Assembly: GCA_948567375.1 (NCBI GenBank)
Contig: OX419757.1
Location: 73,539,836 to 73,603,835, forward strand
DNA: 64,000 bases
DNA from: Lunularia cruciata
Lineage: Eukaryota; Streptophyta; Marchantiopsida; Lunulariales; Lunulariaceae
Reading direction: 5' to 3'
Part shown: one piece after another, positions 15,560 to 37,564 of the stretch
How positions within the stretch are numbered: position 1 is the first letter of the stretch
How the letters are laid out: the number at the start of each line of letters is the position of its first letter
Made by a program: the position numbers and the translations under genes
Notes under the pieces: model-generated
Told to the model about the DNA's origin: nothing
The model's database searches: none
The model's input: only the letters and a program-made list of their open reading frames with translations

Positions 15560-15798
15560 ATTTGATACATCAGGGAAGTGAAGTCAGGGGGAAATCTAGT
15601 GCAGGAACTTTGAGTGTTGGTGGTATCTCCAAGCTCGGCGGATCGTTGGTAGCTCGATTCAAGTTCAACTTTTCCCTAGTGTGCAGAAGCTCATTCAATT
15701 GATGCAAATTTGGTAGTTAGGCAGACGGTGTGCGGAAACGCTGGCCAATTTTTGAGTACAAAAGGAGCAAATTTTGACCAGTGGTTGTGATTTTGAGC

Positions 15799-16376
15799 TC
15801 AGGAGGTGAAGGCAGGACCTATTTGTTACGAGTTGGGCTCAAAAAGTCAAATTGAAGGTGGAGTAGGGAAGCTATTCTCATGAATTTGTGATTTGGAGAA
15901 ACCCATGTTGTCAATTTGGCTCGAGTGGAAAGTTAACATGGGATTTGGCAGACAACCAAATTTAGAGTTTACATCAGATTTTGGCCAGATTTGGAGGACT
16001 TTTGCTAGTTTGGAGGATGTTTGCAAGTTTGGAGAAGTTTTGCCAATTTTGGAGGAGGTTCGAAGTGGCAAGAAGAAAAGGAGGTGAAGGTAAGACCAAT
16101 TTGCTACGAGTTAGGCTCAGAAAGTCAAATTGAAGGTGGAGTTGGGAAGCTATTCTCATGAATTTGTGATTTAGAGAAACCCGTGTTGTCAATTTGGCTC
16201 GAGTGGAAAGTTAACGAGGGATTTGGCGAACAACCAACTTTAGGGTTTTATGTCAGATTTTGGCTAGATTTTATGTTAGATTTGGCCAGATTTGGAGGAC
16301 TTTTGCTAGTTTGGACGACTTTTGCAAGTTTGGAGAAGTTTTGGCAATTTTGGAGGAGGTTCGAAGTGGTAAGAAG
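15799..16376 (+). repeat. Two-copy tandem duplication in the leader of the outer element
   Basis: Two units (about 15799-16077 and 16079-16376) begin GGTGAAGG and end near GAGGTTCGAAGTGG. Inside each, an approximately 22-bp motif (TTTGGAGGACTTTTGCTAGT and variants) repeats four to five times. The second unit also has a short internal duplication of 'AGATTTTGGC'-like sequence. This lies between LTR and gag, where packaging or dimerisation signals normally sit. Confidence 0.75.
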
Positions 16377-17394
16377 AAATGCTTCATTTGGCTGAATTTT
16401 GGCGTTTAGAGGCTTCGAGGCATAGGGCTGTGGGCTATGAGAGGCTACAAAGGCCTAGAAGGGCCAACTTGCTGGCATGAGGCTAGCTAGTTTAGAGTAG
16501 ATCTTGGTCATTGGTTGGCAAAATCTGCTTTTCTTGCTAGATTGTGCGTAACAAGGTTTGACCCCTAGATCTCTTGTTCCTAGATTGATGCCCTAGCCAA
16601 CCGGTCCACCCTCTCTTGTTGTCCTAGTGACTGTGCCATTGTTATCTATACATATGTAGCTTTGGCTAAGAGAGGCAATTTGATCCCATTCTTGGTGATC
16701 TTGGTAGCTTAGGACTTAGATACAAACTTCTCTTATATCAAATGCCAAATGCCAAATGGTGGCAGAGTCAGTCCCATGTTGTTTTATGAGATGGGAGGTT
16801 TTTGTTTAGATTTCTTGTGATTGGACCTCCTCCATTCTCTGCTTCCTAATTGTGCACCACGTTTGTGTGAGGTGCCCTGACTTTTGAGCGTTGGTGCTCT
16901 AGTGTGCTCTTAGTAGTGAGGCTAGAGTGATGACCAGTCAGACTACCTTTGTTTCTCTCTGGTGAGGCAAGAAGTGATGACCTGCAGACCGTGAGAGGGC
17001 GTGTTATGATGGCAAGTTACAAGTTGCAATTTCTCCTAGTGTAGTTATCTCGGTTAGAGTTACATTAGTGGGTGGTGCTTAGTTGGTATTGGCACTTGGT
17101 GGTGTTGGCACTTGGTGGAGTACTTGTGATTGTGACTTGCGGTTGCAGTTTGTGGTTCCAGGTTGCAATTGCAGTTGTGGTTACTTTGTCACCACGGAGT
17201 TCATTAGGGATTCTAGAGGAGACAACCCTACAATACATAGTGGGTTTACTCGGAGTGGCATTCGATATCAGCCTGTATCTTAGGTCCTAGTGAGGGAGGA
17301 GATTGACTCTGAGTTGGAGTTTGACACAAGAGCTGATTCAGTTGAGAGTGCACTTAGTGTGTCCGCACCGTTGTTGTGGGACATGGATGAGATT

Positions 17395-18850
17395 TATGGG
17401 GCCTCTAAAGGCCTAGGCGTTACTTTGGTACAAGGGGTACCATTGAGTTGGATGACTTCATCCAAGAGTTTGATAGTTGGTGTGATCTGCAGTAGATGTG
17501 GAACCCGACTTTGTTTACACCCTTCATGGCGTGGAAGGGGTTGTTTTAGCTTCTGGAGGGTCCGTCGATGGACGACTACCATGAGTTCAAGAGAGCTCAT
17601 TTGGAGGAGATCAAGTTATGGAGACAATATTGGTCTCCGAACTATGTCTCTATCACTTCAGGTTTGGTGGCCATGAGTAGATTGGCTGTACCTACAAGTT
17701 CTAGCTCAAGTAGTGTTGGTGGAGCTAGTGGAGGTGCACTAGCTGGAGATAGTGCTACTACGAGTGGAGGTACCACTACAAGAGGTGGTGTGGTACCAAG
17801 GTTTAACCCCATGGTAGAGTTCTTGTTGTGTTTGAGGCAGAACTACCAAGGAGTGCGGACTAACAAGCTGAGGAGCTTGCAAGAGTTCCAACGGAAGGTT
17901 GGAGAGAGCCTATGTGAGGCATACATTTGCATGAGGCGGCTGATCAATTTCACCTAGGGAGTTATTGAGGCCCAGGCAGTCCAGTTTTGGTATGGGATAC
18001 TGGATAAGGAGTTACGACATAGAGTTTGTGATGCTACATTGTTGCAGACTACTTTGCCCACTTTGGCTGTTGTCTTTGGTTTGGCTAAGTGTATTGAGCT
18101 CAACATGGTGGAGGAGAGAGTGGTGACATCTGGATTTGGTAGGGAGATCTCATCCACGGCTGTAACTTCTTCTAGAGTGCAGTAGAGTGCACCACCCCCA
18201 GTTGGTTTTTGAGGATAGGGTGGACAACCCATATCCTATGGAGCGAGTGGAGGGCCTAGTGGAGTTAGACCCTTATCTTCATTTTTGGGTCAGTAGTAGT
18301 CCGTGAGTAGTGGTGTTGCTTGTTGGACTCGTGGTGGACCTCACCATTGGAGAGAGTGTACTCAAGGTAGTGGACTTGATACCTCGGGTGCATCATAGCC
18401 AGCATAGAGGCAGTGGGAGCATTGCCATAGATTTGGTCATACTAGTGACCGGTGTTTTGACCTACACCCGGAGTTACGGAGTCGTAGGGCTGCTATGGTA
18501 TGTAGTAGAGGAGCTCCATTTCATGGAGGACGAGGTGGTAGAGGTGGTGGTAGAGGATCTACACCTAGTAGAGGTGCAGTACTTGCCTTTACTTTGGATA
18601 TAGCTATGGCTACTTGGATTGAGCAGTTGGAGTAGAGATTGGCTAGTATGGCTATTGCTCAGAGGAGATCAGATTTGGGTGCTAAGGCTTCCACCTCATA
18701 TGCTGGTGACAGAGATGCTTTGGACTTCATGTGCAGAGCAGCACAAGTAGATGCATTTGCAATAGTGACTAGGAACGTAGTATGTGCTCCAGAGCCTAGA
18801 GGAGCATCAGTGGAGTTGGACCTACAAAGAGGAGAGGTTGGGAGATAGGT
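17395..18850 (+). pseudogene. Outer element gag (capsid, two zinc knuckles), degenerate
   Basis: The frame containing 17568-17957 reads as a Ty3-type gag: 'MDDYHEFKRAHLEEI', a Ser/Gly/Thr-rich linker, 'LLCLRQNYQG', 'SLQEFQRKVGESLCEAYI', then past a stop at 17955 'AVQFWYGILDKELRHRV'. Two nucleic-acid-binding zinc knuckles follow: 18325-18363 (C-x2-R-x3-H-x4-C, the second Cys changed to Arg) and about 18417-18458 (first Cys changed to Trp, then C-x4-H-x4-C intact). A Gly/Arg-rich stretch (GGRGGRGGGRGS-like) comes after. Multiple in-frame TAG codons show it is dead. Confidence 0.75.
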
Positions 18851-19339
18851 CAGACTTCCCAAATCTTTCACGCTATCTAAGGCATTGCAGATGACATCCA
18901 TGGTTGCTAGACGTCCAATGCAGGTGTGGTAGGTCGTGAGGGAGTCCATGACGGACTACCTACTAGTGAGCCACCTATTATTACACATATTGAGTCTAGC
19001 ATGATGTTGGGGGCGGCTCAGTTGATTATGTGGCATCCTTTGTTTTTGACCAATGATATGTTTACATTAGGAGTTGACCCAGCCTCAATATTCTGGTTGG
19101 TTGCTACGTTGTGTGAGAGTAGGGATGGTGCGGTTCCTACTACTAGAGTAGAGGTGGTTGGTAGTGGAGATGACTTGGTTGAGGAGCATGGGATCCGTTC
19201 AGCGACCAGTGGTTTGTGGCAGGTAGCAACGACTAGACTAGAGGAGTTGCCAGCTAGATCGGTCTTTGAGAGAGCGTGGTTTACACCTGGTGTTGTCTTA
19301 TTGGATAACCAAAGAGGGATTTTCCATTTGGTGGGACCT

Positions 19340-19782
19340 TAAGGGAAGGTCTATATACCATAGAGAGTCTTGTTAGACTCTGGTGCGCAGCCTCTTATGT
19401 TGGGGAAGGCTGCAATTGTTGGTCAAGAGATACGGAAGATCGATGTGAAGAGGTGTCCATTTTAGATCCAAACATCTCTAGGTGGTGGTTTGACACAATA
19501 CATCACACATCGGGAGCTTGTTGTCCAGGTTCAGCCTGGTCATCTGATTGAAAGCTTGGTGGTGAGAGCTCAGGCTATTGCGACAATTGTTGAGTCATAT
19601 GATGTGCTAGTTGGGGGAGTAGTGTTATACCCCATGGGTTTCAGCATTGACTATTGGGATGAGACAGCCTCTTATAGACCTAGTTGGCAGTTTGGTGAGG
19701 GACGGGTATGTTGCCTACCAGTATGCTTCAGTAGTAGCAGTCTTGGCTCACTATGATACGGGACCATGGTCCTGGACAGGCT
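19340..19782 (+). pseudogene. Outer element aspartic protease (retropepsin), interrupted
   Basis: About 19373-19410 reads 'RVLLDSGAQPLMLGKAA', with the D-S-G-A catalytic signature of retroviral-type proteases that cut the Gag-Pol polyprotein. Downstream 'YDVLVGGVVLYPMGFSIDYW' fits the region after the catalytic site. Stops occur just upstream (19340-19375) and at 19463. The inner retrotransposon begins at 19783, so the polyprotein is cut here and resumes at 27567. Confidence 0.7.
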
Positions 19783-20472
19783 TGTGAGCCGGCCTATCTC
19801 TCACTCAGGATAAACCTCTGATGGCTATTATGGTAGCGCACCATGGACTAAGAAGGCAAAGAACTCAAACTCCATCATACTCCTCCAAGGTTAACACTCC
19901 AAGACTCAAGACATTGCTCACAAGAGAACTCAATGAGAGAGATAGTTGCAAATGAAAGGATGATGAGTACCTCCTCACCCCTTGTTTATATACTTGTGAA
20001 ATAGTTACGTACTAAAGTTACTAATTACCGTAGTAACTCAAGTTACTAGACTAAAAGTCAAGTAAAGTCAAAAAGTAGAAAGGAATATTCATTCACATGG
20101 GCATATTCCCCTAAGCATGTGGTCCTATCTTGACCCAACCACTAAGTCAAGGATTCCTTCACATGGGCTATCCTTGGACTAAAGAAGAATCCAAAACAAA
20201 AAGGCTTGCGGGCCCAAGAGTCTTCAACTCTTTCCTCAAAGCCAAACACCTAGGAATAATACCAAGTCAACACACTAAAATCCAAAATAGTGGTGCTCAT
20301 CTTTTCTACTTCCTCTAAAGTAAGGTCCCCTCTATCCTAGCTATGACTAACTTTAGCTAACCATGACTAATATAGAACCATCCTTTATCTTTATATAAAT
20401 AATATCTCTTAAGTACTTGTAATACCAAGGTAAATATCACAATACCACACACATGCACATATGGGTGTTACA
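19783..20472 (-). repeat. Inner element 3' LTR (element orientation)
   Basis: Starts TGTGAGCC and ends GTGTTACA on the plus strand. The internal side is flanked by TTTACCCCCG (20473-20482), the complement of a polypurine tract CGGGGGTAAA. Confidence 0.92.
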
Positions 20473-20676
20473 TTTACCCCCGGACTAAGTTTTCACTTTG
20501 TCCTCAAAGTGAAGGTCTCTCTACCTTCTATGGTACATCTTCAACTTATCATGGTTGATTCTATTAAAGTGTCTTCCTCCCAACTCCTTGAGATCATAGG
20601 TGTAATTGCCCCACACCTTCTCCACTATGAAAGGTCCAAAGTACTTAGGCAAAAACTTCTTTTGCACTCTCTTGAA

Positions 20677-21960
20677 TCAAATGGAATCAAACAACATTAC
20701 CCAATCACCTTCTTTGAAAGTCTCCACCTTCTTCTTGCCTTGCCTCTTGTCATAGCTCTCCTTTTGTTTCCTTTGGGCTTGCTCCACTCGAACCATAGCA
20801 ATTGCTCTTGCCTCTTCTAACTCCATGAGTTGATCCTTCCTTGACTTCTCTGCATCACCTCCTTGTGCTTTCTTCAATCTCCTATGAATGCTTTGGAAGG
20901 TAGGAAGATCAAAGTGAATAGGTAAGGTAGACTCAATACCATACACCAATTGAAATGGAGAATATCCGGTGGAAGTCTTCATGGTTGTCCTATACTCCCA
21001 CAAAACTGCATGAATCCTCTTGTCCCAATGATGTTTAGCCCCCTCCATTTCTGCATCTTTGGCCAACATCATGCACAAGGTCTTATTGGTTCTCTCTGCC
21101 AAGCTATTGGAATTTGGCTTATAGGATGTAGTTACTCTATGTGTGATAGAGAAATGTCGTAGCATGGCTGTAGTAATGCTTCCTCTAAACTCTCCTCCTC
21201 TATCAGAAACCAACTCCAAAGGGCATCCAAACCTAGTGATAATGCTTTCATAAAGAAATCTACCCACTTCATCTTCATTATTGTCCCTCAATGGTCTAGC
21301 CTCAGCCCACTTGGTAAGGTAATCAATAACTACCACAATGTACCAATTGTTCCTTGGGGTTCTATTGAGAGGACCTACAAAATCAATTCCCCACTTCTCA
21401 AAAGGTCCTAGTAATGGAATTGATCTAAGTGGTGGAGTGGATGTAGACTTTCTAGCAAAAGCTTGACAAACATGACAAGTTTTGCAATAATCAAGACAAT
21501 CCTTGAAAATCCCTCTCCAATGGTAACCTGCATCTAGAATCTTGAAAGTAGTCACCTTTCCTGCAAAGTGTCCTCCACATACTAAACCTTCATGAAACTC
21601 CTTTATGAGTAGGATAGACTCTTCCTTACCCACTGCTCTTTGAAGTAGACCATCTGCTCCTTGGTGAAAAAGAATATCCTTTACCATTATGTAAGGTCTA
21701 GATCTTGCTGCAAGGGCCTTCCTCTCCCTAGCATGCATCCCTTCTGGATAGTTACCTCTTGTCACAAAATCCACAATCTCCTTGTACTCCATTGGAACCT
21801 CTTGAGTGACTGAGATTGTCATGAGCTCCTCATCCGAGAAGGAATCATCCATTGGCTCATCTCCATCATGATCATAGGCTCTAGATAACAAATCAGCATT
21901 TGCATGTTTCTTTCCTGGCCTATCCACAATGGTGTAGTCATACTCAGACAAGAGTTTCAT
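20677..21960 (-). pseudogene. Inner element RNase H end and integrase
   Basis: 427-residue frame. It opens with the end of RNase H (VDRPGKKHANADLLSRAYDH). Integrase follows with an HHCC zinc domain (H and H in 'FHEGLVCGGHFAG', then C-x2-C in 'CKTCHVC') and the catalytic triad D (GIDFVGPL), D (LVSDRGGEF) and E (SLAERTNK). It ends with a Lys-rich, GPY/F-like tail and no chromodomain. The integrase itself has no internal stop. It is separated from RT-RNase H only by a TAG at 21961-21963, where the family has Trp. Confidence 0.88.
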
Positions 21961-23022
21961 CTACCTTGCTAGTCTCCCTTCAACATTAGGCTTGTTGAAG
22001 ATGTACTTCAAAGCCTTGTGATCCGTGACAATGGTGGCTTTCCCTCCAATCAAGTAGTGTCTAAACTTCTTAAGACCAAAGATCACTGCCAACCCTTTTC
22101 TCTCTGTGACAGAGTAGTTCTTCTCTGTTGAAACCATCTGCCTACTAGCATAAGCTATTGGATGATCATGCGCATCTTGGTCTAATTGACTAAGAATGCA
22201 TCCTATAGCTACATTAGAAGCATCAGTGTAGAGGATGAAAGCCTTACTCCAATCAGGTTTAGCAAGAATTGGAGCTACAACAAGGGATTGCTTGAGCTCC
22301 TCAAAAGCTTTGAGAGCCTCCTTGTCTTCCAAAATCACCATGTAATCTACACCCTTCTTCATGTAGATGGTCAATGCATAAGCCTTGTTGGAAAATGAGA
22401 AGATGAACCTCCTATAGTACCCAACCATCCCCAAGAATTGGTGTAACTTTGTCAAGCTTGAAGGGAATGGAAGGTCTGAGATTTTCCTCACCTTCTCAGG
22501 ATCAACTACTATTCCATCCTTGGAAATGATGTGCCCCAAAAGTAGACCTTCTTCATATCCAAAAATGCACTTCTCTGGGTTTTTTGATACATTTGCCTCA
22601 TCCAAGCATTGGAAGACTTTGATTAGGTGCTCAAAGTGCTCCTCCTTGCTCCCATAGACACAAAAGTCATCAATGAAGTCTCTCACAAATTTCCCAATGA
22701 AAGGTTCAAATACCTTGTTCATGAACCGTTGGAATGTGGCTGGAGCATTGCAAAGCCCAAAAGGCATGACCTTGAAAGCGTAAGTTCCCCAAGGTGTGGT
22801 GAATGTGATGAGTTGTTGATGCTCTGGTGCAATCTTGATTTGGTTGTATCCACTATAACCATCTCCAAAATTGTACCTCTCATGACTTGCAACCTCCTCC
22901 AAGATCTCATCAATGAACGGCAATGGGTAGTAATCCTTCTTGGTAACAACATTGGGCTTCTTGTAATCCACACATACCCAAAGCTTGCCATTCTTTTTCT
23001 TCACAATGACAATTGGAGACAC
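21961..23022 (-). pseudogene. Inner element reverse transcriptase and RNase H
   Basis: Residues 1-180 hold RT: 'SPIVIVKKKNGKLWVCVDY', the first catalytic Asp in GDGYSGYNQ (about 54), 'MPFGLCNAPATFQ', and FIDD (116-119), where most elements have YxDD. Later 'FLGMVGYYRRFI' connects to RNase H with 'LYTDASNVAIG' and 'VTDHKALKYI'. Copies element RNA into DNA. The frame starts just after a TGA (23023-23025) at a position usually Trp in SEWVSPI, so the natural ORF extended upstream. Confidence 0.9.
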
Positions 23023-23587
23023 TCATTCTGAATTCTCCACCTCAAAGATAAATCTAGCCTCCTTGAGCTTATCAATCTCCTCCTTCACAACCAAAGATAT
23101 TGGTGGGCTAATGCAACGTTGCTTTTGGCGGATTGGTCTTGTATGTGACTCCACCTCTATCTTGTGCTCCTCCAAGGTGACTTCCTTCAAATCCTTGTAA
23201 CTAAAAGCAAACACATGGATGAACTTGCGGAAAATCTCCTCAAATCTCACCTTCTCCTCCTTGGTAACATTTGGGCCATACTTGTCTCTCTACCTCCTCA
23301 AGTGTCAATGGTGATTTTTTTGGGTCCTTCAAAACCTCTGGCTTAGGTGCAAAATCCATAGCAGACAAGGGATATACATCTGAATCAGATTTAGATTCAT
23401 CCTCCTCCATGGAAGTCTCCTCCTCCATGCTTGTGTCCACACTTGAAGCTCCTTCTTCAGAATCTGATTCCCAATAATCAGAAGATGGTGTATCTGAATG
23501 TGAAGTGTTGGTGGTGTTAGTCATAGGAATAGTGACTCTATGGTTTGATGGCCCAATCCTCAAGTACCCCTTTGTGCCATCGATCAA
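23023..23587 (-). pseudogene. Inner element protease-RT linker, frame-broken
   Basis: Two overlapping minus-strand frames, 23587-23240 and 23250-23023, continue the polyprotein after protease. The first has an acidic Ser/Glu/Asp-rich linker. The second leads into RT with 'IEVESHTRPIRQKQRC' and 'EIDKLKEARFI'. The frame changes at both overlaps. The breaks could be mutations or frameshift sites; simple decay is more likely given the other lesions. Confidence 0.7.
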
Positions 23588-25334
23588 TTGTGTGTGCTGC
23601 TCTCAACCATGGCCTCCCAAGAAGTAAGTCATAGCTTGAATCCTTCAAGACTTGGAAAGTCATGAGATTTTGAACTCCCATAACTGAATCTACCACCTTA
23701 TCCATCACTCCTACTGGTCGAACTTGTTGCTTGTTTGCCATGCTCACCACAAATGTTGAAGGTCTTGAGGGTATCATACCTAACTTCTTCATCAACCTTT
23801 CTGACATGGCATTCACTGTTGATCCTCCATCAACCAATGCATCCTTGATGTTGTGACCATTCACTCTCACATCAATCTTGGAGGCATATTCACAAGCCTC
23901 CCATGGTGCTGGCTTGGCATCCACCACCCCCATTGATATTGGAACTTTTGCCTTCTTCTTCTTCTTGCTCCTTGTAGAACTCAAACCACCTCTAAGCTCC
24001 TTTCTCAAGGTAGGGTTCAAAGCGATCAATTGGCCCACTGTGATGTTAGCCTTGTGACTACCAACATCCTCCAACACATTGTAGTTCCATTGTTGCTTTG
24101 AGATCAAGAAGTCCTCCATCCCCAACTTCTTCCTTGGAGTTTTTGTTGTTGATGGTGTTGAGGTGCAAGTGCTCTTAGTAGACATAGGAGTATCCTTGCT
24201 TGAAGTAAATCCTTGAGAAGAGTGAACATCCTCTACAAAACAAGCTCTCTTCTTCTCTTGTGCCAAAAGCTCCAAATTAAGACCCTTGGAGTTTGAGCAC
24301 TCTCCCTTCTCATACTTGCTCTCAACCATATCTATGGATGCTATCCCCTTACCTTTGTTGGGATTAGGAGCCACTTGGGTTTCACTACCTCCCTCTTTCT
24401 CTCTATTGGCTCCCTCATAACCCCTTCCTCCATGGTAAGTGGAATTTGGGCAATTCCTTTGGATATAGCCTCTTCCTCCACAACCAAAACAATTTCTATC
24501 ATTGAAATTGTTGGCTGGTTGGCCTCCTCTATATGGATAGTTTCTATAACTCCTAGGCCCTCTCCCTACATTCTGATCCACCTCTCTCTTCTCCCATAGT
24601 TGCACCACATTGATCTTGAGATCTGCAAGTTGTTCTGTGATGGTTTGAAGTGGATCTTTTGGGAGAGGTGCAAGAACTGGAGCAACCACTACTTGTGGTG
24701 CAACCCTTGCCACCAAAGTATCAGAAGTTCCACCATACTTGTAGCCTTGACGAGGATGCACAACCTCCTTCACCACCAAATCACTCTCATCCCCTTCCAA
24801 ACTCTCCTCCATACGAATTGCGATCTTGATAGCTTCAACCTTGGAAGAAGGTTTCTCATATCTCACCTTGCTTCTAATTTTTGATTTCAACCCTCCCACA
24901 AAATTCTTGGTGAGCATGGCCCCTATGCCAATCATTGTAGTCTCCACATCATCCCCACCCTTCCTCAACACTATGCGAAATCTGGACTCCAACTTTTCCA
25001 CTCTTTCCACATAGACTCTCACTTTCTCTCCTTCTCCTTGCTTGAGAAATGTAACCTCACTCATTAATCTCTCATAACTCTCATCATGAAGAAAGTTCTC
25101 AATGAGTGTTGAAGTCAAAGTCTCCCAAGACTCCTCTTCCCCATCTCTCCTCTCTCTCTTTTGGTATTCTGACTCATACCATATAAGTGCTGCATCCTCA
25201 AAGAAATCTGGTAATAATGAGGCCCACTCATTCTTCCTCCTCTCATTGTTTCCTATGCAAGCTCTATTGAAGTCTCTCACAAAGGCTTCCACATCTTCTC
25301 CATCCTTGCCAAAGAAAACCGGAAGTTTCCCCAT
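23538..25334 (-). CDS. Inner element Gag-protease polyprotein
   Basis: 598-residue uninterrupted frame. The N-terminal third is a retrotransposon gag capsid domain ('LPVFFGKDGEDVEAFVRDF', 'WYESEYQKRERRDGEESW'-like, 'FLKQGEGEKVRVYVERVEKL'). A single zinc knuckle CFGCGGRGYIQRNC (about residues 282-295) has Tyr where His is expected, a one-step CAT-to-TAT change. A Ser/Thr/Lys linker follows, then an aspartic protease with 'ALVDGGSTVNAMSE' as catalytic site and 'LLLGRPWLRAAH' as the closing motif. Packages the RNA and processes the polyprotein. Confidence 0.87.
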   Translation of the reverse strand: MGKLPVFFGKDGEDVEAFVRDFNRACIGNNERRKNEWASLLPDFFEDAALIWYESEYQKRERRDGEEESWETLTSTLIENFLHDESYERLMSEVTFLKQGEGEKVRVYVERVEKLESRFRIVLRKGGDDVETTMIGIGAMLTKNFVGGLKSKIRSKVRYEKPSSKVEAIKIAIRMEESLEGDESDLVVKEVVHPRQGYKYGGTSDTLVARVAPQVVVAPVLAPLPKDPLQTITEQLADLKINVVQLWEKREVDQNVGRGPRSYRNYPYRGGQPANNFNDRNCFGCGGRGYIQRNCPNSTYHGGRGYEGANREKEGGSETQVAPNPNKGKGIASIDMVESKYEKGECSNSKGLNLELLAQEKKRACFVEDVHSSQGFTSSKDTPMSTKSTCTSTPSTTKTPRKKLGMEDFLISKQQWNYNVLEDVGSHKANITVGQLIALNPTLRKELRGGLSSTRSKKKKKAKVPISMGVVDAKPAPWEACEYASKIDVRVNGHNIKDALVDGGSTVNAMSERLMKKLGMIPSRPSTFVVSMANKQQVRPVGVMDKVVDSVMGVQNLMTFQVLKDSSYDLLLGRPWLRAAHTIDRWHKGVLEDWAIKP

Positions 25335-25543
25335 CTTAACCTCTCACTATCTTTATTTCTCTCAAATTTTTTTTTCTTTTCTCACTCTATTACTAATAGA
25401 GTATATACATGACTAATCCACTCTAGGGAACACAAAAGGTTCAGGTTACTCCAAGATTTCTATAGCAACATCAAATCCTAGAGTGCATATTAATCTAACT
25501 CTCCTGGATAGTTTATCCATAAGTTGAAAGATTATCTCCATCA

Positions 25544-26017
25544 CTAATCTTGAGAACTAGCTGATGAAGGTGGTAGTATTTTTGTAGCTATACTAAGACT
25601 CTCTCCAAGATCTTTCACCAAAGTCTCCAAAAGTGCTTTTACTCCACTACACTCATGTCCTTTTGGAAGTCTTTCCACCCCACAAACCTCACACAACTCC
25701 TTGGTCTTAGATTTTCTCCTTCCTAATCTTGGTGAAGAAGGTCCAACATGCAAATCCAAGTCAAGTAAGCCTCTCCTTTCCCTCAATCTCTTGCTCTCAA
25801 AGGTCAATGGACATGAACTTGCCTTATGTCCCTTCTCTCCACACAGAAAGCACTTAGACTCACTCTTTCCTCCAAGTGGTGTAGGTTTTTGGATCTTCTC
25901 AATACTCTCTTCAAATTCTATTGTAAACTCTCTTTTCCTCAAATCCACCCCTACAATCACCTCAAACCCTTGGGGAACCTTGCAAAATCTCAATTTCCAC
26001 TCTTGATGACCCTCCAT
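25544..26017 (-). CDS. Extra 157-aa zinc-knuckle ORF upstream of gag in the inner element
   Basis: Lies between the primer site and gag, in the same orientation as the rest. Residues about 56-69 form a CCHC knuckle (CFLCGEKGHKASSC), and a second Cys/His cluster, C-x2-C-x8-H-x-C, sits at about 108-122 (CEVCGVERLPKGHEC). The remainder is Lys/Arg-rich. Just upstream another minus-strand frame (26177-25962) overlaps it and reads as if it were its natural N-terminus, implying a frameshift near 26010. The N-terminal text loosely recalls DUF4283-type zinc-knuckle proteins. Function unknown; nucleic-acid binding is inferred. Confidence 0.6.
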   Translation of the reverse strand: MEGHQEWKLRFCKVPQGFEVIVGVDLRKREFTIEFEESIEKIQKPTPLGGKSESKCFLCGEKGHKASSCPLTFESKRLRERRGLLDLDLHVGPSSPRLGRRKSKTKELCEVCGVERLPKGHECSGVKALLETLVKDLGESLSIATKILPPSSASSQD

Positions 26018-26852
26018 GTTCCCAAGATGAATCTAAACACTCAAACATGCTTTTTGTTGATCTCAAACTCCTCATGCATAAGATCTCCACTCTGCAGAAT
26101 TGACCATTCCTCACAATGTCACTCAAATCGCCCAACCAGTATGTTACAGTCCTCTGAAATTTTTCCCACTTGATCACAACTCTAGGATATCTCTCCTTGC
26201 AAAATTTCAGATCTTTTCATCAAGCCATTTGGCCTAGACACCGTTCTATTCAGCACACAAGTTTCAGATTTGGTCTGAAAACCACCCCCCTTACTTCAAA
26301 AACTTACAACGCCCTGCGCAAAAACTATCTCTCTCTCATTTTTGTGGCAGCAGGTTGGATACAATGCACTGAATTTTCTTGGAAATTTTCAGTACAATTC
26401 ACTAAAAATTGAAGAAATGGAAGACTCTATACAATTTTCCAGAGAGCATGCAGTTGCGGGAGCACTTTACCCTATCAACTTTCAAAAATTCTAGCCTAGT
26501 GCGCATAGTAGCTCTCATAATAATTTCAAGTGTGATAACTGAAAGATAACCCAAGCTATCATGTGTAGAAATTTCAAGTCCAGATCTCAAACTTGAGATT
26601 TTGCCCAAAATCACCTTAATCCCCAAAATCTGCAATCCACCTCACACAATCTCTCCAATTCCTCTCATGTGTACAAGATGTACAAAATCACCTCAAAGAC
26701 ATCATAATGAACTTCAGGGTATACAAATGGATCTTGGTTTCTAACATAAGTTCAGCCCTCTACTCTCCTAATGTTCTCTCCAAGTGAGCTCTCATAGCCT
26801 CCTTCTGCCTAATGTAGAATTGAACGCGGAACATTATCTTGCCTTCTAGAGA

Positions 26853-26871
26853 GGTCCCGGCAACGGAACCA
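26853..26871 (-). promoter_or_regulatory. Inner element primer-binding site
   Basis: Four bases from the LTR, the element strand reads TGGTTCCGTTGCCGGGACC, complementary to a tRNA 3' end finishing in ...CCA. It is close to the tRNA-Asp-type site TGGCGCCGTTGCCGGGGA known from plant Tat/Athila elements but differs at several bases, so the actual primer tRNA is uncertain. Confidence 0.75.
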
Positions 26872-26875
26872 AAAA

Positions 26876-27566
26876 TGTGAGCCGGCCTGTCTCTCACTCA
26901 TGATGAACATCTGATGGCTATTATGGTAGCGCACCATGGACTAAGAAGGCAAAGAACTCGAACTCCATCATACTCCTCCAAGGCTAACACTCCAAGACTC
27001 AAGGCATTGCTCACAAGAGAACTCAATGAGAGAGAGATAGTTGCAAATGAAAGGATGATGAGTACTCCTCACCCCTTGTTTATATACTTGTGAAATAGTT
27101 ACATACCAAAGTTACTAATTACCGTAGTAACTCAAGTTACTAGACTAAAAGTCAAGTAAAGTCAAAAAGTAGAAAGGAATATCCATTCACATGGGCATAT
27201 TCCCCTAAGCATGTGGTCCTATCTTGACCCAACCACTAAGTCAAGGATTCCTTCACATGGGCTATTCTTGGACTAAAGAAGAATCCAAAACAAAAAGGCT
27301 TGCGGGCCCAAGAGTCTTCAACTCTTTCCTCAAAGCCAAACACCTAGGAATAATACCAAGTCAACACACTAAAATCCAAAATAGTGGTGCTCATCTTTTC
27401 TACTTCCTCTAAAGTAAGGTCCCCTCTATCCTAGCTATGACTAACTTTAGCTAACCATGACTAATATAGAACCATCCTTTATCTCTATATAAATAATATC
27501 TCTTAAGTACTTGTAATACTAAGTTAAATATCACAATACCACACACATGCACATATGGGTGTTACA
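26876..27566 (-). repeat. Inner element 5' LTR (element orientation)
   Basis: 691 bp, nearly identical to 19783-20472, with the same TGTGAGCC and GTGTTACA ends on the plus strand. The outer-element sequence resumes at 27567. Confidence 0.92.
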
Positions 27567-27879
27567 AGCCACATCAGTTTTAGCTTTCAATGGTGTAGTT
27601 ACTTGGCCTGGTAACTTGTTGGAGGGGAATGCCTATGGAAAGGATAATCCTATGCTAGAGGAGATCACTTGGCTTTGGAGTATGAGTGGGATTGTTCCAT
27701 CCACCTTGAATGTTCCATTGTGGAGTTCAGAGGAGGCATTGCAATAACATGCAGATTAGTTGGTGCAATAGGCTTGGAGTGGAGCCTTCATACCATCAAA
27801 AGATGAGTGTGAGGATGAGCCGCCAGAGTCACTTACTTTGACACCTTTGGATACCACACTCATTGCTTGGCAGTATCCA

Positions 27880-28921
27880 GTAGAGGAGATATGCCTATTG
27901 GAGTTGTTTGGTGGGATCAGCACCAAACTAGCTACGGTATTACAAGCAAGTATACGAGTACAGAGGTACTTGTATGTAGAAAGAGATGAGATTGCTAGGC
28001 AAGTCTCTCTACATCATGTGACATAGTTGGCCTACTGATATCCGGAGTTATTACTAATATCAGCAGTCAGAGGTTATCAGAAGTCCCTACCAGCAGGCAT
28101 TTCCTTATTGGGGGCGCATGATCTGGAGAGACATGGGCCTATTCACTTGGTGATTTTTGGATGGCCATGTTAGGGACATACACATGCTAGTAGAGGTTTA
28201 GGTCTTTAGGATCCTCATTCTGGTGTGTTTTGGGAGATGTTACGGATACTACCACATCTCCAGGTTTCATCAGTCCATTTCTCCAACTTACCTTTTGGGG
28301 AACGTTTCTTTGATGGGTGATTCTCACACCAGAGTGATGGCAAGTACACATTAGGTCCATTCTTGGATGGGACCTGCTATATTGTTAGATGCACCTAGAG
28401 TGGGATCATGGGCTCATTGTCTTTGTCTTTGGTGGATGAACCTCTTACCCAGAGAGGTTCTACAACGTGCTTATGATGGGATTCAACAACTTGACCACAT
28501 CCTTGTTGATGATATCTTGGATGTTGGGCATCAGTCTCAAACAGTGGTAGTGGTTGATAGGTCACCTATGGCAATGGTGAACCTAGTTGGATAGCCTAGA
28601 GCCGCATTTCCCAAACTCATGAGTTTCCCAAGCTCTCATGCTTTTTGAGAGGGAGGACTTGGACTTGTTTGGGACTCACAGTTACAGCAATTGGTGGAGC
28701 CCAATGCTGATGAGAGAGAGCGGGCGATAGGTTCTCATACCGGTATTACCTTTGTTCTAGCAGTGTTAGAGGCATCTAAGCATCAGGTGTTAGGTCAAGC
28801 TATGGACCTGAATTGTTTGACCTGGATTGTGAGCCTTGGCTTGGCAGAGCAGCGTAAGATGCACTTTATAGGCATCAACACTCGGACACTTGTGAGCCCT
28901 ATGCCTATAGAGACAATTTAG
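27880..28921 (+). pseudogene. C5 cytosine DNA methyltransferase domain captured in the outer Ty3/gypsy pol
   Basis: About 345 codons with methyltransferase motifs in canonical order. Motif I: LELFGGIST at 27898-27924 (SAM binding; family F-x-G-x-G, last Gly changed to Ser), then YVERDEIAR. Motif IV: GWPC at about 28159-28170, catalytic Cys codon 28168-28170, followed at once by TAG where Gln is expected, then RGLGLQDPHSG. Motif VI: LLGNV around 28298-28306 (family ENV; Glu changed to Gly). Motif VIII: 'DAPRVGSWAHCLCLWW' at about 28391-28440, both family Arg now Cys. Motif IX: ERERAIGSHTG near 28706-28740. Motif X: LGQAMDLN at 28790-28813, replacing GNxxP. In-frame stops: 28024, 28036, 28171, 28352, 28592, 28646; one +1 frameshift lies near 28265. 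It has no N-terminal regulatory domains and not the rearranged DRM order. It would add methyl groups to cytosine in DNA, presumably the element's own. Confidence 0.87.
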
Positions 28922-29457
28922 GCACTTGTTGGGGGCAATGGACTGAGTGGACATGGTATTCTTGGGACACATCCAATAGCTACTAGGTAGAGTGGTCTAC
29001 TTGGAGTCCATCCAGGTGAGCGTGGGCTACTTGGATTACACCTTGGTCCACGTGGGATGCAACTAGAGGACGTGTGGAGCTTGCAGCCAGAGTGGAGAGA
29101 GTTTTTCACACAGAGGTTGGGACCTCTAGTGGGCTGGGGCATGATACTATTGCTCCCAAGGGCCCATTGTAGTAGCCAGTCAATACATCTTTTACTCCTA
29201 CTAGAGTTATAGAAAATACTTGGGAGCCAGATCTTGGACCCAAGCTTATTGGAGAAGAAAGACGGAGGATTTGGAGGTTCTTGAGGAGCCACACAAGTTG
29301 TTTTACCTTCAGTATGAAGGATTTGGGTGCTCTAAAAGGACTTGGTATATGGATTGAGCTGACTAGCAATATATCGGTTTTTCGACGTCCTGATTGATAT
29401 ATTGAGATAGAGAGGACATTGATTTAGAGCCGGAGTAGTGACCTTTTTGAAGCTAGT

Positions 29458-30070
29458 TTGGTGGAGATTTCACATGGAGAGTATGCATCATTGATAGTGA
29501 TGCCAGCCAAGAAGGATATGCATGGCAACTACATAGATAGGCGGATGTGTGGAGATTACCATCTTATCAACCGACAGACCAGAGCTGATCGGTATGCCAT
29601 GCTTACACCAGAGGAGATTTTTGATGTGATTGGGTATGCAAAGGTCTTCAGTACTTTGGATCTTCAAGCGGGATATCATCAGTTGCCGATCAAGGAGGAG
29701 GATAAGTCCAAGATAACATTTTGGGCTATTGATCCTCACGGTAAAGATGTGTTATATTAGTGGAGGTTCTTACCATATGGGTTTAAGAACACTCTTGTTG
29801 AGCTCCAAAGGGTCATGGATAGAAACCTAGCTAGATTGGATTTTGCTTGATGCTATATTGATGACATTTTGGTCTATAGCACTATTGTGGAGGAGCATGA
29901 GAGACTATTGTTGGAGGTGTTTGAGAGGTTGAGATCTCATGGACTCAAATTACATCTTGGGAAGTGTAGGTTCTTCCATGAGTAGGTTGAGTATTTGGGT
30001 CACACTATCTACCCTGGAGGACTTTGTTCAGTAGACCAAGGTGGAGGCTATTGCACGTATTCCTCTACCT
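29458..30070 (+). pseudogene. Outer element reverse transcriptase
   Basis: Reads 'YASLIVMPAKKDMHGNY', 'RMCGDYHLINRQT', then the motif A Asp in 'FSTLDLQAGYHQLPI', 'WRFLPYGFKN', and the intact catalytic YIDD at 29854-29865, followed by 'SHGLKLHLGKCRFF' and 'VEYLGH'. Stops at 29758 (TAG), 29848 (TGA, family Arg) and about 29983 (TAG), plus a frame break near 30015, disable it. Confidence 0.85.
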
Positions 30071-30655
30071 ACGGATGTGAGCAAAGTGCAAGCATTCCTT
30101 GGGTTGGCAAACTTCTATTGCTGCTATGTTAGAGGAATTAGTGCCATTGCCAAGGCCTTGACAAAGCTGACCAAGCTTACACAAGAGCGGTGTTGGGAAG
30201 ATGAGTAGGAGAGAGCTTTTGTAGAGCTCAAGGAGAGGTTGACATCTACTCCTATTTTGAGGAGACCGATCAGAGGACGACCATTTCATGTTCATATTGA
30301 TTGGAGTACGTTGGGGCTTGGAGTGGTGCTCACCCAGCATGATGATGAGGCAAAGGAGTTTGTGGTGGCCTATGCTAGTTGCTCCAACAATTCAGCGGAG
30401 GTGAAGTATAGTTCATATGAGGGAGAGTGCTTGGCAGCAGTTTGGGCAGTAGCACATTTTTGATGTTACCTATTTGGTAACCCCTTCACTCTCATCACTA
30501 ATCATCAACCGCTGAAGTGGTTGATGGAGTCTGACAAGCTTTCAGGGAAGCTTGCATGCTGGACTTTGATTTTACAGGAGTATGATTTCACAGTTGTTCA
30601 CATACCTAGAGTGGTGAATCGTGATGCAGATGGGTTGAGTAGAAACCCATGACCC
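30071..30655 (+). pseudogene. Outer element connection and RNase H
   Basis: The connection domain shows 'FLGLANFY' just after 30090, 'IAKALTKLTKL' near 30155-30180 and 'TSTPILRRPI' at 30241. RNase H follows: 'HVHIDWSTLGLGVVLTQ' with the first Asp, 'YSSYEGECLAAVWAV' with the catalytic Glu, 'LITNHQPLKWLM' (family TDHxPLxWL), and 'DFTVVHIPRVVNRDADGLSR' to the end. Stops at about 30208 and 30462. Confidence 0.82.
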
Positions 30656-31019
30656 AACCAGTAGGATCATACCAGAGCACGTTGGCATGGTGAGACAGAT
30701 GAGGAGATGGTGCTAGGTTAGCATGCATCGGCCTTTCTGTGTATATTTTTAGAGGCTTTGGTGGTATCTCTCTCAGCACATACAAGAGGAGTTATTGAGG
30801 TCACAAATCTATAGAGTGAAGATATTGGTACAGTTCAGCGTGACATTCATGATGATGTCTTAGTGATGGACTATCTTTGCACTAGTATTGTGGGTGGCAT
30901 AGTTGGGGCCAAGGAGAGAGACCATGTTCTTCAGCGAGCCAGACAGTCCAAATTGGAGGGTAAACACCTTTTGCGTGTATAGGAGGATGGTAGAGTGCAA
31001 GTAGTACCACTTCCATCTC

Positions 31020-31760
31020 AGAGACCATAGTTGGTCCATCATGCTCATGAGGAGCTAGGACATTTTGGAATAAAGCATACATATAGCTTACTCTAGAGTC
31101 ATTAGTGGTGGCATGGTATGCAGATCGAGGTACTGTAGTTTACTGCCAGATGTGTGGTTTGTGACCAAGTTAGAGCATCAATGCACCTACACCACAGTTA
31201 CACCCATTACCTATCATGGGATTGAGTTACCGTTGGAGTTTGGACTTTGCTGGACTTCTACCGTTAATTTTCAGACATCATCGATATGTTTTGGTGATGG
31301 TGGAGCACTTCTCCAAGTGGATTGAGTTGGTGGCACTTCCTAACAAGTCTAGTGAAGGGATAGCTTACTCGTTCCTAGATCAATTTCTTAGTCATTTTGG
31401 TGCACCAGCTGAGGTTTTGACTGATCAGGGTATAGAGTTCTTGGAGGAGTTTCAAGTCTTGTGTGACAAGGCTTTGATTGATCATCATGCTACATCTTGA
31501 GATCACCTTGAGGCAGATGGCTTAGCAGAGAGAGTGGTTCAGACAATGAAGAGAGGATTGCAAAAGTATGGTTTGCAGAGAGGCCACTTGGGAGATTGGG
31601 ATCTCCAATTACCTTGGTTGGCCATGGGCTATCGGTTGACTAGCAAGCCTCCTTAGCATCCTTCTCTCCATACTTTCTACTCTATGGACGAGATCTAGAT
31701 TTACCTGCAGCCATTTGTCAAGATGCTACTGTAGTTTTGGAGTTGGATGACCTTGATGTA
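31020..31760 (+). pseudogene. Outer element integrase
   Basis: HHCC zinc domain: 'VHHAHEELGHFG' at about 31034-31070 and C-x2-C at 31151-31162. Catalytic core: D in LDFAG (31243-31245), D in LTDQG (31423-31425) and E in GLAERV (31528-31530), with 34 codons between the last two against the usual 35. Several TAG/TGA codons (for example 31498-31500) interrupt it. Integrase joins element cDNA to the chromosome; its C-terminal tail runs toward the PHD finger. Confidence 0.83.
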
Positions 31761-31984
31761 TGGATGAGCGCATGTTTTTAACGGGCAGGGATCTTTTGGA
31801 GAGTGATGTCATTGGCCTTTGAGAACTTAGCAATTGCTTAGCATAGAGATACTTTATGCTATGCTACCATTTGAGGAGGAGGTTTAGACTCTTGATCTGT
31901 TGATTTCATCCAGGCAACTATGTATATCTATAGCAAACAACATCAACGACACTTGACGTTTCGACAAGCTGCACTATCTTAAGA

Positions 31985-32278
31985 GTGCGTGAGGTTTTGC
32001 CATTTGGAGTCCTTGTGTTAGAAGGATGTGATGGTGTTTTTTGGAAGGTTCATGTGCGCAATTGTGCGCCATGCCACCTCCCAAACATTGATGGTACTAT
32101 GGACCCAAGCTTGACACTTGTACGTGAAGGCTTGAGGTGTATGTTATGTGGCTCTTTTGGTGGAGCTGCTACTATGTTAGTGTGTGATAGTTGTTTGAGA
32201 AGATGGCATATGGCATATATGACTCCTCCCCTCATGGTGGTTCCTCAAGGACAGTGGTTATGTCCTAGATGTACTTGA
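31985..32278 (+). CDS. PHD zinc finger at the C-terminus of the outer Ty3/gypsy polyprotein
   Basis: Open frame ending TGA at 32276-32278. After 'FWKVHVRNCAPCHLP' comes a PHD finger, 32138-32272: C-x2-C (32138-32149), then C-x2-C in VCDSC, RRWH (His at 32207-32209), then 'TPPL..VPQGQW' and the closing C-x2-C (32261-32272). This is the Cys4-His-Cys3 zinc layout with the conserved PPL and GxW; the Cys two residues after His is Tyr here (TAT at 32216-32218, a one-base change). PHD fingers read histone H3 tails. Placed after integrase it occupies the position of the chromodomain in chromoviruses, so a role in choosing integration sites is inferred. Confidence 0.85.
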   Translation: MREVLPFGVLVLEGCDGVFWKVHVRNCAPCHLPNIDGTMDPSLTLVREGLRCMLCGSFGGAATMLVCDSCLRRWHMAYMTPPLMVVPQGQWLCPRCT

Positions 32279-32433
32279 CCTATAGCTAGTTCATTCTTTA
32301 TATGGTATAGATTGCAGAGAGGCGACTAAAGATGGGGCTCCATAGCACCCAGCCTCCTAATCTTTGCCCATTATAGGGTATACCCTATACTTAGAGTAGA
32401 TGGCTATCTGGAGTTAGAGGGACCTAACCGCCA

Positions 32434-32447
32434 GCTAGGGAGGCAAT
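32434..32447 (+). promoter_or_regulatory. Outer element polypurine tract
   Basis: AGCTAGGGAGGCAAT directly precedes the LTR start TGTGGCAC at 32448, the normal place for the plus-strand primer. Confidence 0.6.
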
Positions 32448-33002
32448 TGTGGCACTTTAGAGTCTATGTATGACTTATATGTGAGTTATGCTTCTATAGT
32501 GTATGATGTTGACAACAATGTATGTTGTGTAGCGATGTATATACGCACGACAATTGTCATGCCATTAGTAGTGTTACATCTAGATTGCTCAGACACTAGA
32601 GTTGCATTGATAGTAGTTAGAGTTATTTCAGCAATTTCTCAAAGACTACTTTTTGATGATCAGATTTTGTGTTTAGGGTACTGACTTCATGGTGGGGCTC
32701 ACTGTCACTTTGCACCATTTGCACCGTCAAGTGTGCCATCAACAAGACCATTAGGGTTCAGACCTAGCTTGAGTCCAAGGGGTATACTTTCAAAGTGCAG
32801 CTCCAGAGAGCTCACTTCTTTGATGTTGAACCTTTGAGTTCCTGGCTATGGTGGGCAAAGGCCGACGAGCGGCGAGCATCAGCTGGATTCCCTATGCTTG
32901 AGTGGGTGTGGCTTGATTGTAATCAGTGCCTAGTTGTTGGCAGTTTATAAAGTGATAGATCAAGTACTGATCTAAGTTGAGTTGAGTTGAGAGTAGTAAA
33001 CA
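32448..33002 (+). repeat. Outer Ty3/gypsy 3' LTR
   Basis: Begins TGTGGCACTTTAGAG and ends GTAAACA, 555 bp, matching the 5' LTR over its last 450 bp. Confidence 0.8.
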
Positions 33003-33013
33003 ATCTGATTAAT

Positions 33014-33250
33014 TGTGGCACTTTAGAGTCAATGTATGACTTATGTGTGAGTTGTGATTCTATAGTGTATGATGTTGACAACGATGTATGTTGTCAGTGA
33101 TATAAGTTGTGTAGCAATGTATATATGTACAACAAATGTTATGTAGTGTAGAGGATATGAAGGAGTTTGTGCATGACATGCTTGGTTGGAAAATCTAGAT
33201 GCAATGTTATTTCAAGTGCATAATGTAGAGGATATGCAAGAGTTTGTGTA
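33014..33250 (+). repeat. Second, partial LTR start immediately after the 3' LTR
   Basis: 33014-33125 repeats the first 110 bp of the 3' LTR (TGTGGCACTTTAGAGTC..., TGTATGACTTA, GTGTATGATGTTGACAAC). It then diverges into sequence of which a part (33220-33240, ATAATGTAGAGGATATG) recalls 15086-15105. It may be a truncated neighbouring insertion or a recombination product. Confidence 0.7.
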
Positions 33251-35892: not shown

Positions 35893-36402
35893 TATAGCAA
35901 AGAGTATCCATTCAAAGGGATACTCTTTGCTATATTATAAAGACAAGATGTTCCTTTGGGACATCTAAGTATTGAGGAATGAAAATTTTTGTTTCTCTTG
36001 TATAGCTTCTCTTGTGTGGTTTCTCCTCTCCTTGGAACATTACACATATGGACCACTATTGCATATAGTTGAAACCACACTCACAAGTGAGTAACGAGGA
36101 TGCAAATGGGTGGGCCAAACCTAGGTAGAACCTCATATTGACCATTGAAAAAGACTCGAATGTAGCTCCCTTTGAATGGATACTCTTTGCTATATTATAA
36201 AGACAAGATGTTCCTTTGGGACATCTAAGTATTGAGGAATGAAACTTTGTGTTTCTCTTGTATAACTTTTCTTGTGTGGTTTTCTCCTATCCTTGGAACA
36301 TTACACATATGGACCACTCTTGCATATAGTTGAAACCACACTCACAAGTGAGTAACGAGGATGCAGATGGGTGGGCCAAACCTAGGTAGAACCTCATATG
36401 GA
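35893..36402 (+). repeat. 260-bp tandem duplication derived from LTR 3' ends, opened by a 17-bp palindrome
   Basis: Copies start at 35918 and 36178 (GGATACTCTTTGCTATATTA) and run through TTACACATATGGACCAC to GAACCTCATAT. The TATATTATAAAGACAAG block resembles the TATA region of the LTR at 34534. A perfect 17-bp inverted repeat (35893-35909 with 35918-35934, 8-nt loop) precedes the first copy. Confidence 0.8.
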
Positions 36403-37564
36403 CTATTGAAAAAACTAAATGTACATTCTAATAAATATATGCTCCATATGATAGATTCTTTACTATTCATTATGTTTATTATAGAATGTTCTAATTACAT
36501 TATATCTATACCCAAAGATTGGGTGTGGATATTAATTCCATTAAGCCATGGATGAGAATTTGCTTCTACTTTCCAGAAAATAATATGGAAATCAATTTAA
36601 CATTTTTATATATCTCTATTTTATACTTTATGGATATAAATGTAATATAACCATGAGAATTTTTCACTAGTTAACTTATCTTAAAAAATTTTGGTTAGCA
36701 CTTCCTTTCAAAAAATACATATATTGTTGTTAATAATATAACACACATATATACACCAAATTCTCACTTATTAAGTTACTTTTAGGTTTTTCCTTGATGA
36801 TTCATAATCTATATATTATTCTTATCCTGGATGGTCAGAAATAAGACATATTACATAATACTTTTCCTCCTCAGTAAAGTACGAGCAGTTGTCGTTCAGG
36901 TTGACAAATGACAAATGAAACAAGGAGAGGCACAACATGCGCTTTGACAATAATAAATCCAAAGGAATCGCTCAATCACAATGTGAGGCAAGATATGCAC
37001 TATTAGTTCGTAGTTATATTTCACTCCGTAGTTGTGATTCATAGTTACAGTTGTGGTACCAAAATCCGGAGGCAGTGTGCGCCGCAATCTTCCCAGCTTT
37101 ACACCCAGTTCTCCTGAATCTGACATATTCTGGGTACCCCACTATTGAACGAGCACCGTTATGCACCACCAAATTGCTAATTTCGATGGGTTATATATTG
37201 CACGGAGCTGTATTTCAATTCTTGATATGTAATAGAGTAACTGGAACCGGAAACTCGACTGTTTGCAGTGCGCATTTTCAACCTGAATATGAATCTGGCA
37301 TTAGATATGAAGAAAACAAAACTCTAAGAATGTTGTGTGTATGAACTGGACGTAGCTAACTTGATCGACGGTTAGCTTACTCGGGTGCGAGCATGGTTGA
37401 TCCAATTGATTGAAAACCATTCACTGCGGGATTGATTGTGCTACTCTTGTCATGGATAGCGTTATTCTCTACGTATGAAGCGTGTCTGTTTAGGGCCTCA
37501 GCAATACGAACTGGTTTCTTCATGACCTAATCTACGGTGATAATATTGACATTGTCCATCTATG
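36403..37564. other. AT-rich sequence, nothing recognised
   Basis: No gene, repeat or domain identified. The first part (36.4-36.8 kb) is very AT-rich; base composition becomes more balanced after 36.9 kb, probably leaving the transposon block. Confidence 0.4.

Follow-up and report, generated by a model that had tools for sequence, protein, structure and literature searches.

A decayed Gypsy-type retrotransposon with a putative DNMT3-like methyltransferase in the liverwort Lunularia cruciata, and its relatives in green plants

Retrotransposons carrying a Dnmt3-type cytosine methyltransferase were reported by de Mendoza and colleagues in 2018 (PMC5890265), whose main text names dinoflagellates and one charophyte, contains the word 'Marchantia' nowhere and uses 'bryophyte' once, for ordinary Dnmt3 genes. 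KnitGypsy-Dnmt3 of Klebsormidium nitens is described there as a multicopy element with the Gypsy domain set, an intronless and unrearranged Dnmt3-type domain in 'the Pol polyprotein ORF' (open reading frame), low Ka/Ks and DIRS-style repeats (Fig. 4 legend). SymbioDIRS-Dnmt3 of Symbiodinium also carries a Dnmt3-type domain and is, according to the same paper, a DIRS element unrelated to the Gypsy ones. DNMT3 members in retrotransposons, given as 'LTR Copia and DIRS', are mentioned in PMC12344493 as earlier reported in streptophytes and dinoflagellates. Among the papers listed by the literature searches, judged by titles and abstract openings and with subscription journals and some preprints outside the scope, none deals with retroelement methyltransferases of land plants. 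In the present study, a 64,000-nucleotide stretch of Lunularia cruciata DNA (contig OX419757.1, positions 73,539,836 to 73,603,835, forward strand; hereafter the window) was analyzed. Judged from its sequence, the region 15139–33134 of the window is one decayed Gypsy-type retrotransposon with a DNMT3-like methyltransferase. A first-pass annotation had assigned it to the kind described by de Mendoza and colleagues, and this assignment was borne out by the shared Gypsy set and DNMT3-type domain, now in a land-plant genome. Membership of the already known Gypsy-Dnmt3 kind is well supported; the members studied here occur in land plants at high copy number, and their expression layout is new. The 580-Mb assembly of L. 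cruciata was published with a description of Ty3/Gypsy bursts, and the word methyltransferase is absent from the main text of that paper (PMC9985172).

The order of domains in the window element was gag, protease, methyltransferase, reverse transcriptase (RT), RNase H, integrase and PHD finger, and was matched from gag to PHD finger by tblastn of the Marchantia proteins P0001 and P0009, the Sphagnum protein P0004 and the metagenomic protein P0037. Along the gag, protease and methyltransferase regions P0001 was 45–58% identical. Chance similarity was ruled out by this homology along the element.

The methyltransferase region (27574–28939, plus strand) is a pseudogene with the domain at about 27880–28860. 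Its first part, 27574–28263, matched P0001 residues 773–1005 (56%), and its second, 28268–28939, residues 1007–1230 (58%). Motifs I, II, IV, VIII, IX and X, numbered by eye, were readable in canonical order within about 27,880–28,870; motifs I to IV lie in the frame of 27364, which is lost through a frameshift near 28,264, and the remaining motifs are read in that of 28265. Six motifs including motif VI had been claimed in the first-pass annotation; their order was confirmed, with motif VI reading GNV in the window against ENV in relatives. The catalytic Pro-Cys of motif IV, stated there to be intact, is present and is directly followed by a stop codon. The gene is dead, being spread over two frames with several stops. 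The motif I–IV piece alone scored 10.7 bits with PF00145 (E = 0.35), below the cut-off of 22, and the second piece gave no PF00145 match, so that for this copy taken by itself the PF00145 check proposed in the first-pass annotation gives an ambiguous answer. The same profile was passed by P0001 (35.6 bits) and by the intact host copy L009 (31.2 bits). Since P0001 aligns along the element and both of these proteins pass PF00145, the methyltransferase identity of the window copy is settled. In a database search the first piece retrieved four proteins, three of Marchantia polymorpha (65–66% identity) and one of Sphagnum fallax (42%). Compared with 20 host copies, the two pieces had mean identities of 86% and 81%, values pulled down by one frameshifted copy (L020) that aligned badly. 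The location between protease and RT of one element on one strand, also claimed earlier, was correct for the element as such; in the window a nested minus-strand Gypsy element (19783–27566) parts the protease from the methyltransferase, and its flanks map onto nearly adjacent bases in three intact copies.

To the left of this insertion, and likewise on the plus strand, lie the gag region with broken frames (17412–18902; P0001 residues 11–488, 52% by tblastn) and the broken protease region (18977–19729; P0001 residues 508–757, 45%). The LDSGAQP core of the protease was read as a motif, and Pfam gave no match at 19341–19790. To the right, also on the plus strand, the broken RT (29221–30024) matched P0009 residues 696–924 (57%), and RVT_1 reached 15.9 bits on it (E = 0.011), under the cut-off of 29.6. 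It is followed by the broken RNase H region (30026–30976; P0009 residues 926–1190, 58%), a partly open DDE integrase core (31174–31641; rve, E = 2.1e-12, 47.6 bits; also matched by tblastn of P0037) and a C-terminal open stretch (31934–32275) with the PHD finger at its end (PF00628, E = 9.9e-8, 32.3 bits, cut-off 24).

Better-preserved copies were found in the host genome. The search covered 565,766,749 bases on 74 contigs, eight of which, of 60 to 85 Mb each, sum to about 558 Mb. PF00145 gave 2,161 candidates, the best 123 of which were scored and included open frames of up to 1,428 residues. An exact degenerate codon pattern for Gly-Trp-Pro-Cys-Gln-Gly-His of motif IV occurred at 1,746 genome sites (874 + 872), and the reversed pattern, used as a control, at none. 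Altogether 48 loci were examined: eight from the PF00145 search, 20 ten-kb copies picked for their longest open frames and 20 of 3.5 kb that came next in the list. Because of this choice, statements on intactness do not hold for the average copy. The methyltransferase was present in 43 of the 48 loci, the remaining five being host genes, and all 43 also encode RT; the second refuting condition named in the first-pass annotation, a lack of other copies with the methyltransferase joined to the same RT, was therefore not borne out. The intact gag-protease-methyltransferase-RT order was likewise found; in all 20 long copies protease, methyltransferase, RT, RNase H, integrase and PHD finger stand in order, and gag was matched in 19. 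Frames were open through an unrearranged, intronless DNMT3-type domain, and ORF2 of L009 has the Gypsy-type RT-RNase H-DDE integrase set by Pfam. Of the 20 long copies, 16 had a repeat pair, with identities of 95.0–99.8% in 15 of them and 89.4% in one. With high confidence for identity and layout taken jointly, the window copy belongs to a large Gypsy family that has young copies and in which the methyltransferase is a standing part of the gag-side polyprotein.

The five host genes were observed alongside the family. The DNMT3-like genes L001 and L004 are in exon-like pieces (L004 by eye), and the L001 exon had DNMT3 chains as its best match. L002 and L034 were assigned by eye to DRM, with permuted motif order, and L003 to a CMT-like gene. 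For Marchantia, five DNA methyltransferases of the MET, CMT and DRM classes were counted (PMC5784723); the two DNMT3-like host genes seen here differ from this report, in which only those three classes are given.

The terminal repeats have the layout A1...B1-A2-B2, in which a B repeat of about 106 bases stands before and after the second A and the 5' end has A alone. This B1-A2-B2 layout was found in 18 of the 20 host copies and in the window, and the classical two-LTR (long terminal repeat) reading, with the 450-bp repeats as LTRs, was ruled out by it. On the plus strand of the window, A1 (15139–15548 in its recognizable part, starting TGTCACG) and A2 (32555–33011) match the L021 A repeat at 88.6% and 85% identity, respectively, and B1 (32447–32552) repeats, inside the element, the 3' terminal B2 (33012–33134). 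Elements of the family end in TGTC...GACA, and B2 of the window ends in ACAACA where other copies have GACA. The target-site duplication AATG precedes TGTC at 15135–15138 and follows ...ACA at 33135–33138. Read by eye, four-bp duplications occurred in nine of the ten copies with both ends readable, the exception being L021. In the window (32553–32554) and in host copies a two-base spacer lies between the GACA that ends B1 and the TGTC that opens A2, an arrangement that looks like the trace of a circular form.

The expression layout was read from the intact copies. ORF1, encoding gag, protease and methyltransferase, is open over 1,428 residues in L009 and L010 and terminates at UAG; pol continues in the same frame and is open over 1,037 residues in L013 and L014, with its first Met at residue 48 after the stop (L013). 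In the junction alignment all 43 copies have TAG as the stop, and in 41 of them CARYYA comes next. The corresponding UAG of the window is at 29170–29172 (plus strand), and the next codon is TAG there and CAG in other copies. As background, 5 of the 2,049 TAG triplets on both strands of the window precede CARYYA. A genome pattern that allowed any codon at the stop position and fixed CARYYA matched 1,453 sites, counts that are informative on the preceding codon only. P0001 and other ORF1-type proteins likewise terminate shortly past the methyltransferase domain. Tobamoviruses, benyviruses and pomoviruses have UAG-CARYYA as their type I readthrough motif (PMC5382211). Since the gag-protease ORF closes with the methyltransferase and an in-frame UAG, the enzyme would be expected in Gag-like amounts, and pol would be made by readthrough.

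Relatives with a fused methyltransferase were found in Marchantia, Sphagnum and Closterium, and a partial match in Tetraselmis was detected by our own profile alone, as was the Tetrabaena domain. The host family, Marchantia, Sphagnum, Closterium, metagenomic proteins and the partial Tetraselmis match share the layout protease-methyltransferase-RT. A second layout, RNase H-methyltransferase-integrase, occurred in metagenomes and in the degenerate Tetrabaena match. Annotated Marchantia proteins of the family reach 1,333 residues (P0001 = Mp_4g09160, and P0005). The nearest named RT relatives were in Riccia sorocarpa (83% identity over 53% of the query) and Calypogeia fissa (78% over 75%), with Marchantia at 77% over 44%. 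The motif alignment of the relatives covered 50 of 61 proteins. Pro-Cys-Gln, Glu-Asn and the other motif residues are retained in L009 and in relatives from three groups; motif order was unpermuted from I to X in L009 and intact relatives, with ENV and Pro-Cys kept (motif names by eye). Closterium P0140 and P0151 passed PF00145 with 31.4 and 24.9 bits. As further observations, the transcriptome-derived pol protein P0062 (69% over the whole query) hints at transcription of the family in some species, and P0061, a fragment filed under a Spirochaetia metagenome-assembled genome, is probably eukaryotic contamination. The domains of P0165 (Tetrabaena) and P0131, which sit between RNase H and integrase, have long branches, and the former is possibly a dead module. 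Two scans of viral contigs led nowhere.

Both trees were quick searches in which long branches were flagged. The RT tree comprised 83 rows, namely 81 of 178 proteins chosen by length and two host copies, and placed the RNase H-methyltransferase-integrase layout in a single 25-row group (SH-aLRT, the Shimodaira-Hasegawa-like approximate likelihood ratio test, 99). Three proteins nested in this group, P0113, P0116 and P0127, had no detected methyltransferase and are possible losses. An ORF2-only protein scored in this way may still have a methyltransferase in its element, because ORF1 yields a protein of its own; the contigs of P0022 and P0064 are equally long, as are those of P0020 and P0139. 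For the methyltransferase tree (75 rows), eleven Marchantia near-duplicates or fragments were removed by hand and rows under 230 profile positions were dropped. The second layout formed one group of 33 (support 94) with P0124 outside it, without clear placement, and the 71 retroelement domains stood apart from the four DNMT3/DRM references with a support of 100. A single capture of the methyltransferase by green-plant elements is suggested, and only suggested, given the thin reference set and the flagged long branches. Pairwise RT and methyltransferase distances were correlated (r = 0.80, 0 of 5,000, n = 35). In open copies, with values pooled over non-independent pairs, dN/dS was 0.37 for the methyltransferase (14), 0.40 for RT (16), 0.38 for integrase (10), 0.28 for RNase H (11), 0.30 for protease (33), 0.21 for gag (12) and 0.47 for PHD (18). 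On these values the methyltransferase appears to be kept under selection like RT.

Compared with the elements already described, the family shares with KnitGypsy-Dnmt3 the combination of DIRS-like repeats and Gypsy domains. It differs from that element in its land-plant hosts and its 1,746 motif sites, and perhaps in the position of the domain, which lies here in the gag-protease ORF, before the UAG and in a frame shared with pol. The PHD finger and the 4-bp duplications are features seen in the host family, KnitGypsy-Dnmt3 being compared by its description. Among the matches no K. nitens protein with a methyltransferase was found, and four with a related RT (P0121, P0152, P0153 and P0169) show none; kinship with the K. 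nitens element is supported by shared architecture and related RTs, methyltransferase sequences aside. DIRS elements have a tyrosine recombinase, and PAT-like DIRS elements have split direct repeats. The family shares the A1...B1-A2-B2 layout with the latter and differs by its rve DDE integrase and 4-bp target duplications; no recombinase family was found in ORF1 or ORF2 of L009 (Pfam, E up to 0.01), which has rve, and the family does not fall into the DIRS order. Chromoviruses, which are Gypsy elements with an integrase chromodomain, resemble L009 in that their pol closes, at its C terminus, with a domain of the chromatin-reader type. This assignment was ruled out, because ORF2 of L009 has a PHD finger and no chromodomain at the same Pfam threshold and L009 carries the methyltransferase. 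Fold and motif order of the domain are as in DNMT3A, DNMT3B and plant DNMT3; unlike these, L009 ORF1 has no further Pfam domain (E up to 0.01) and the family domain falls in a separate tree group. The permuted order of the DRM type was not found in the family domain.

Host cells silence transposons by cytosine methylation, and an element encoding a methyltransferase turns this idea round. In the proposed sequence of events, ribosomes would make abundant Gag-protease-methyltransferase and, by UAG readthrough, less RT-RNase H-integrase-PHD. The element protease would free the methyltransferase within the particle, where it would add 5-methylcytosine to the element cDNA ahead of integration. The DDE integrase would then insert this cDNA with a 4-bp duplication, the PHD finger perhaps aiding chromatin targeting. 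Pre-methylation may make the cDNA resemble host DNA, or may limit copy number. The Gag-side layout makes a role in the particle plausible, and methylation of the element's own cDNA may be regarded as the likeliest main role, held with slightly less than even confidence. More tentatively still, a green-plant Gypsy lineage in liverworts, a moss, charophytes and perhaps chlorophytes may during the greater part of its history have carried a DNMT3-type particle enzyme, with expression in Gag amounts by a viral-type readthrough switch, co-inheritance with RT, a move between two polyprotein positions and cDNA methylation before PHD-guided integration.

Several points weigh against these proposals. 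Readthrough at the UAG is inferred from sequence, the copies are related by descent and so represent one layout seen many times, and among 100 listed of the 1,453 junctions, 93 had TAG, four TAA and three a sense codon (by eye). The dN/dS values carry the pooling noted above. Transitions in the repeat pairs were spread roughly evenly over CG (50), CHG (44) and CHH (47), which looks like ordinary host methylation and not a CG-only self-mark. Motif IV of Closterium P0140 and P0151 reads GWEC instead of GWPC, with Glu-Cys for Pro-Cys; Tetraselmis P0159 and Tetrabaena P0165 have no PF00145 match, and Pro-Cys and ENV were looked for in P0165 and not found. The first-pass annotation had named dinoflagellates and charophytes and de novo CG methylation; the taxa agree with PMC5890265, and de novo CG methylation in yeast is reported there for the Symbiodinium domain, the K. 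nitens domain having given no detectable methylation, a result judged inconclusive by its authors.

Other explanations were weighed on the same evidence. The enzyme might act in trans, with the host genome or competing elements as its target instead of the cDNA of its own element, serving as a chromatin weapon or copy-number brake; a Gag-side enzyme would be abundant, 1,746 sites have intact motif-IV codons, and host-wide effects and slowed retrotransposition were raised in PMC5890265. Placement on the Gag side suggests packaging in particles, however, and the repeat transitions have no CG skew, so we consider action in trans somewhat unlikely. Slightly less probable again is that the domain no longer methylates DNA and serves as a nucleic-acid binding or RNA-methylating module, acting on the tRNA primer or genomic RNA, or as a structural part of Gag. 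The changed or lost catalytic motifs of some relatives and the silence of the K. nitens domain in yeast (PMC5890265) fit such a role, against which stand the motif residues kept in L009 and relatives of three groups and the better match of the domain to DNMT3 than to DNMT2 by sequence profile, DNMT3 also leading the fold matches.

The origin of the domain was considered in the same way. Capture from a bacterium or phage, in place of a eukaryotic DNMT3, appears very unlikely: DNMT3 was the best match in each comparison, and among 84,980 prokaryote genomes 443 stretches matched and no relative was confirmed, a weak test since only two peptide patterns were used. The sequence comparisons listed no DNMT1 or chromomethylase chain to E = 1 or 0.01, an absence that excludes nothing. 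That an ordinary host DNMT gene fragment merely lies beside an old retrotransposon is hardly credible. Nothing speaks for it except that the window copy scores weakly with PF00145, and it was refuted by the repeated fused copies: every one of the 43 host loci shows the fusion, as do proteins of Marchantia, Sphagnum and Closterium. In addition, the host DNMT3-like genes L001 and L004 are divided over exon-like frames and do not group with the family domain.

The family has well over a thousand motif-bearing copies and an enzyme apparently under selection like RT. Better-preserved copies in the same genome and relatives in liverworts, a moss and green algae make the use of a silencing enzyme by an element testable in land plants. 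Marchantia polymorpha is a genetic model (PMC9516144) with annotated family proteins, which makes self-methylation testable in a species whose genetics is well developed. Surveys that count plant DNA methyltransferases may need to separate host genes from retroelement domains.

Further features of the window were recorded. The LTRs of the nested element (19783–20472 and 26876–27566) are identical at 675 of 689 sites (98%), and A1 and A2 of the outer element differ at 52 of 410 sites; therefore, the outer element is the older one. The nested element has long open gag and pol frames on the minus strand. The observed/expected CpG ratio was 0.11 at 20271–26876 versus 0.26 at 27365–32554. Direct repeats of 99–170 bases with a spacing of about 260–300 bases were observed at 15801–16379 and 35907–36413. 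By eye, pieces of host genes were seen at 846–1355 (a PHYLLO/MenH-like hydrolase), at 4579–6894 (a leucine-rich repeat protein in a single open frame) and at 9954–10925 (resembling prolyl-tRNA synthetase).
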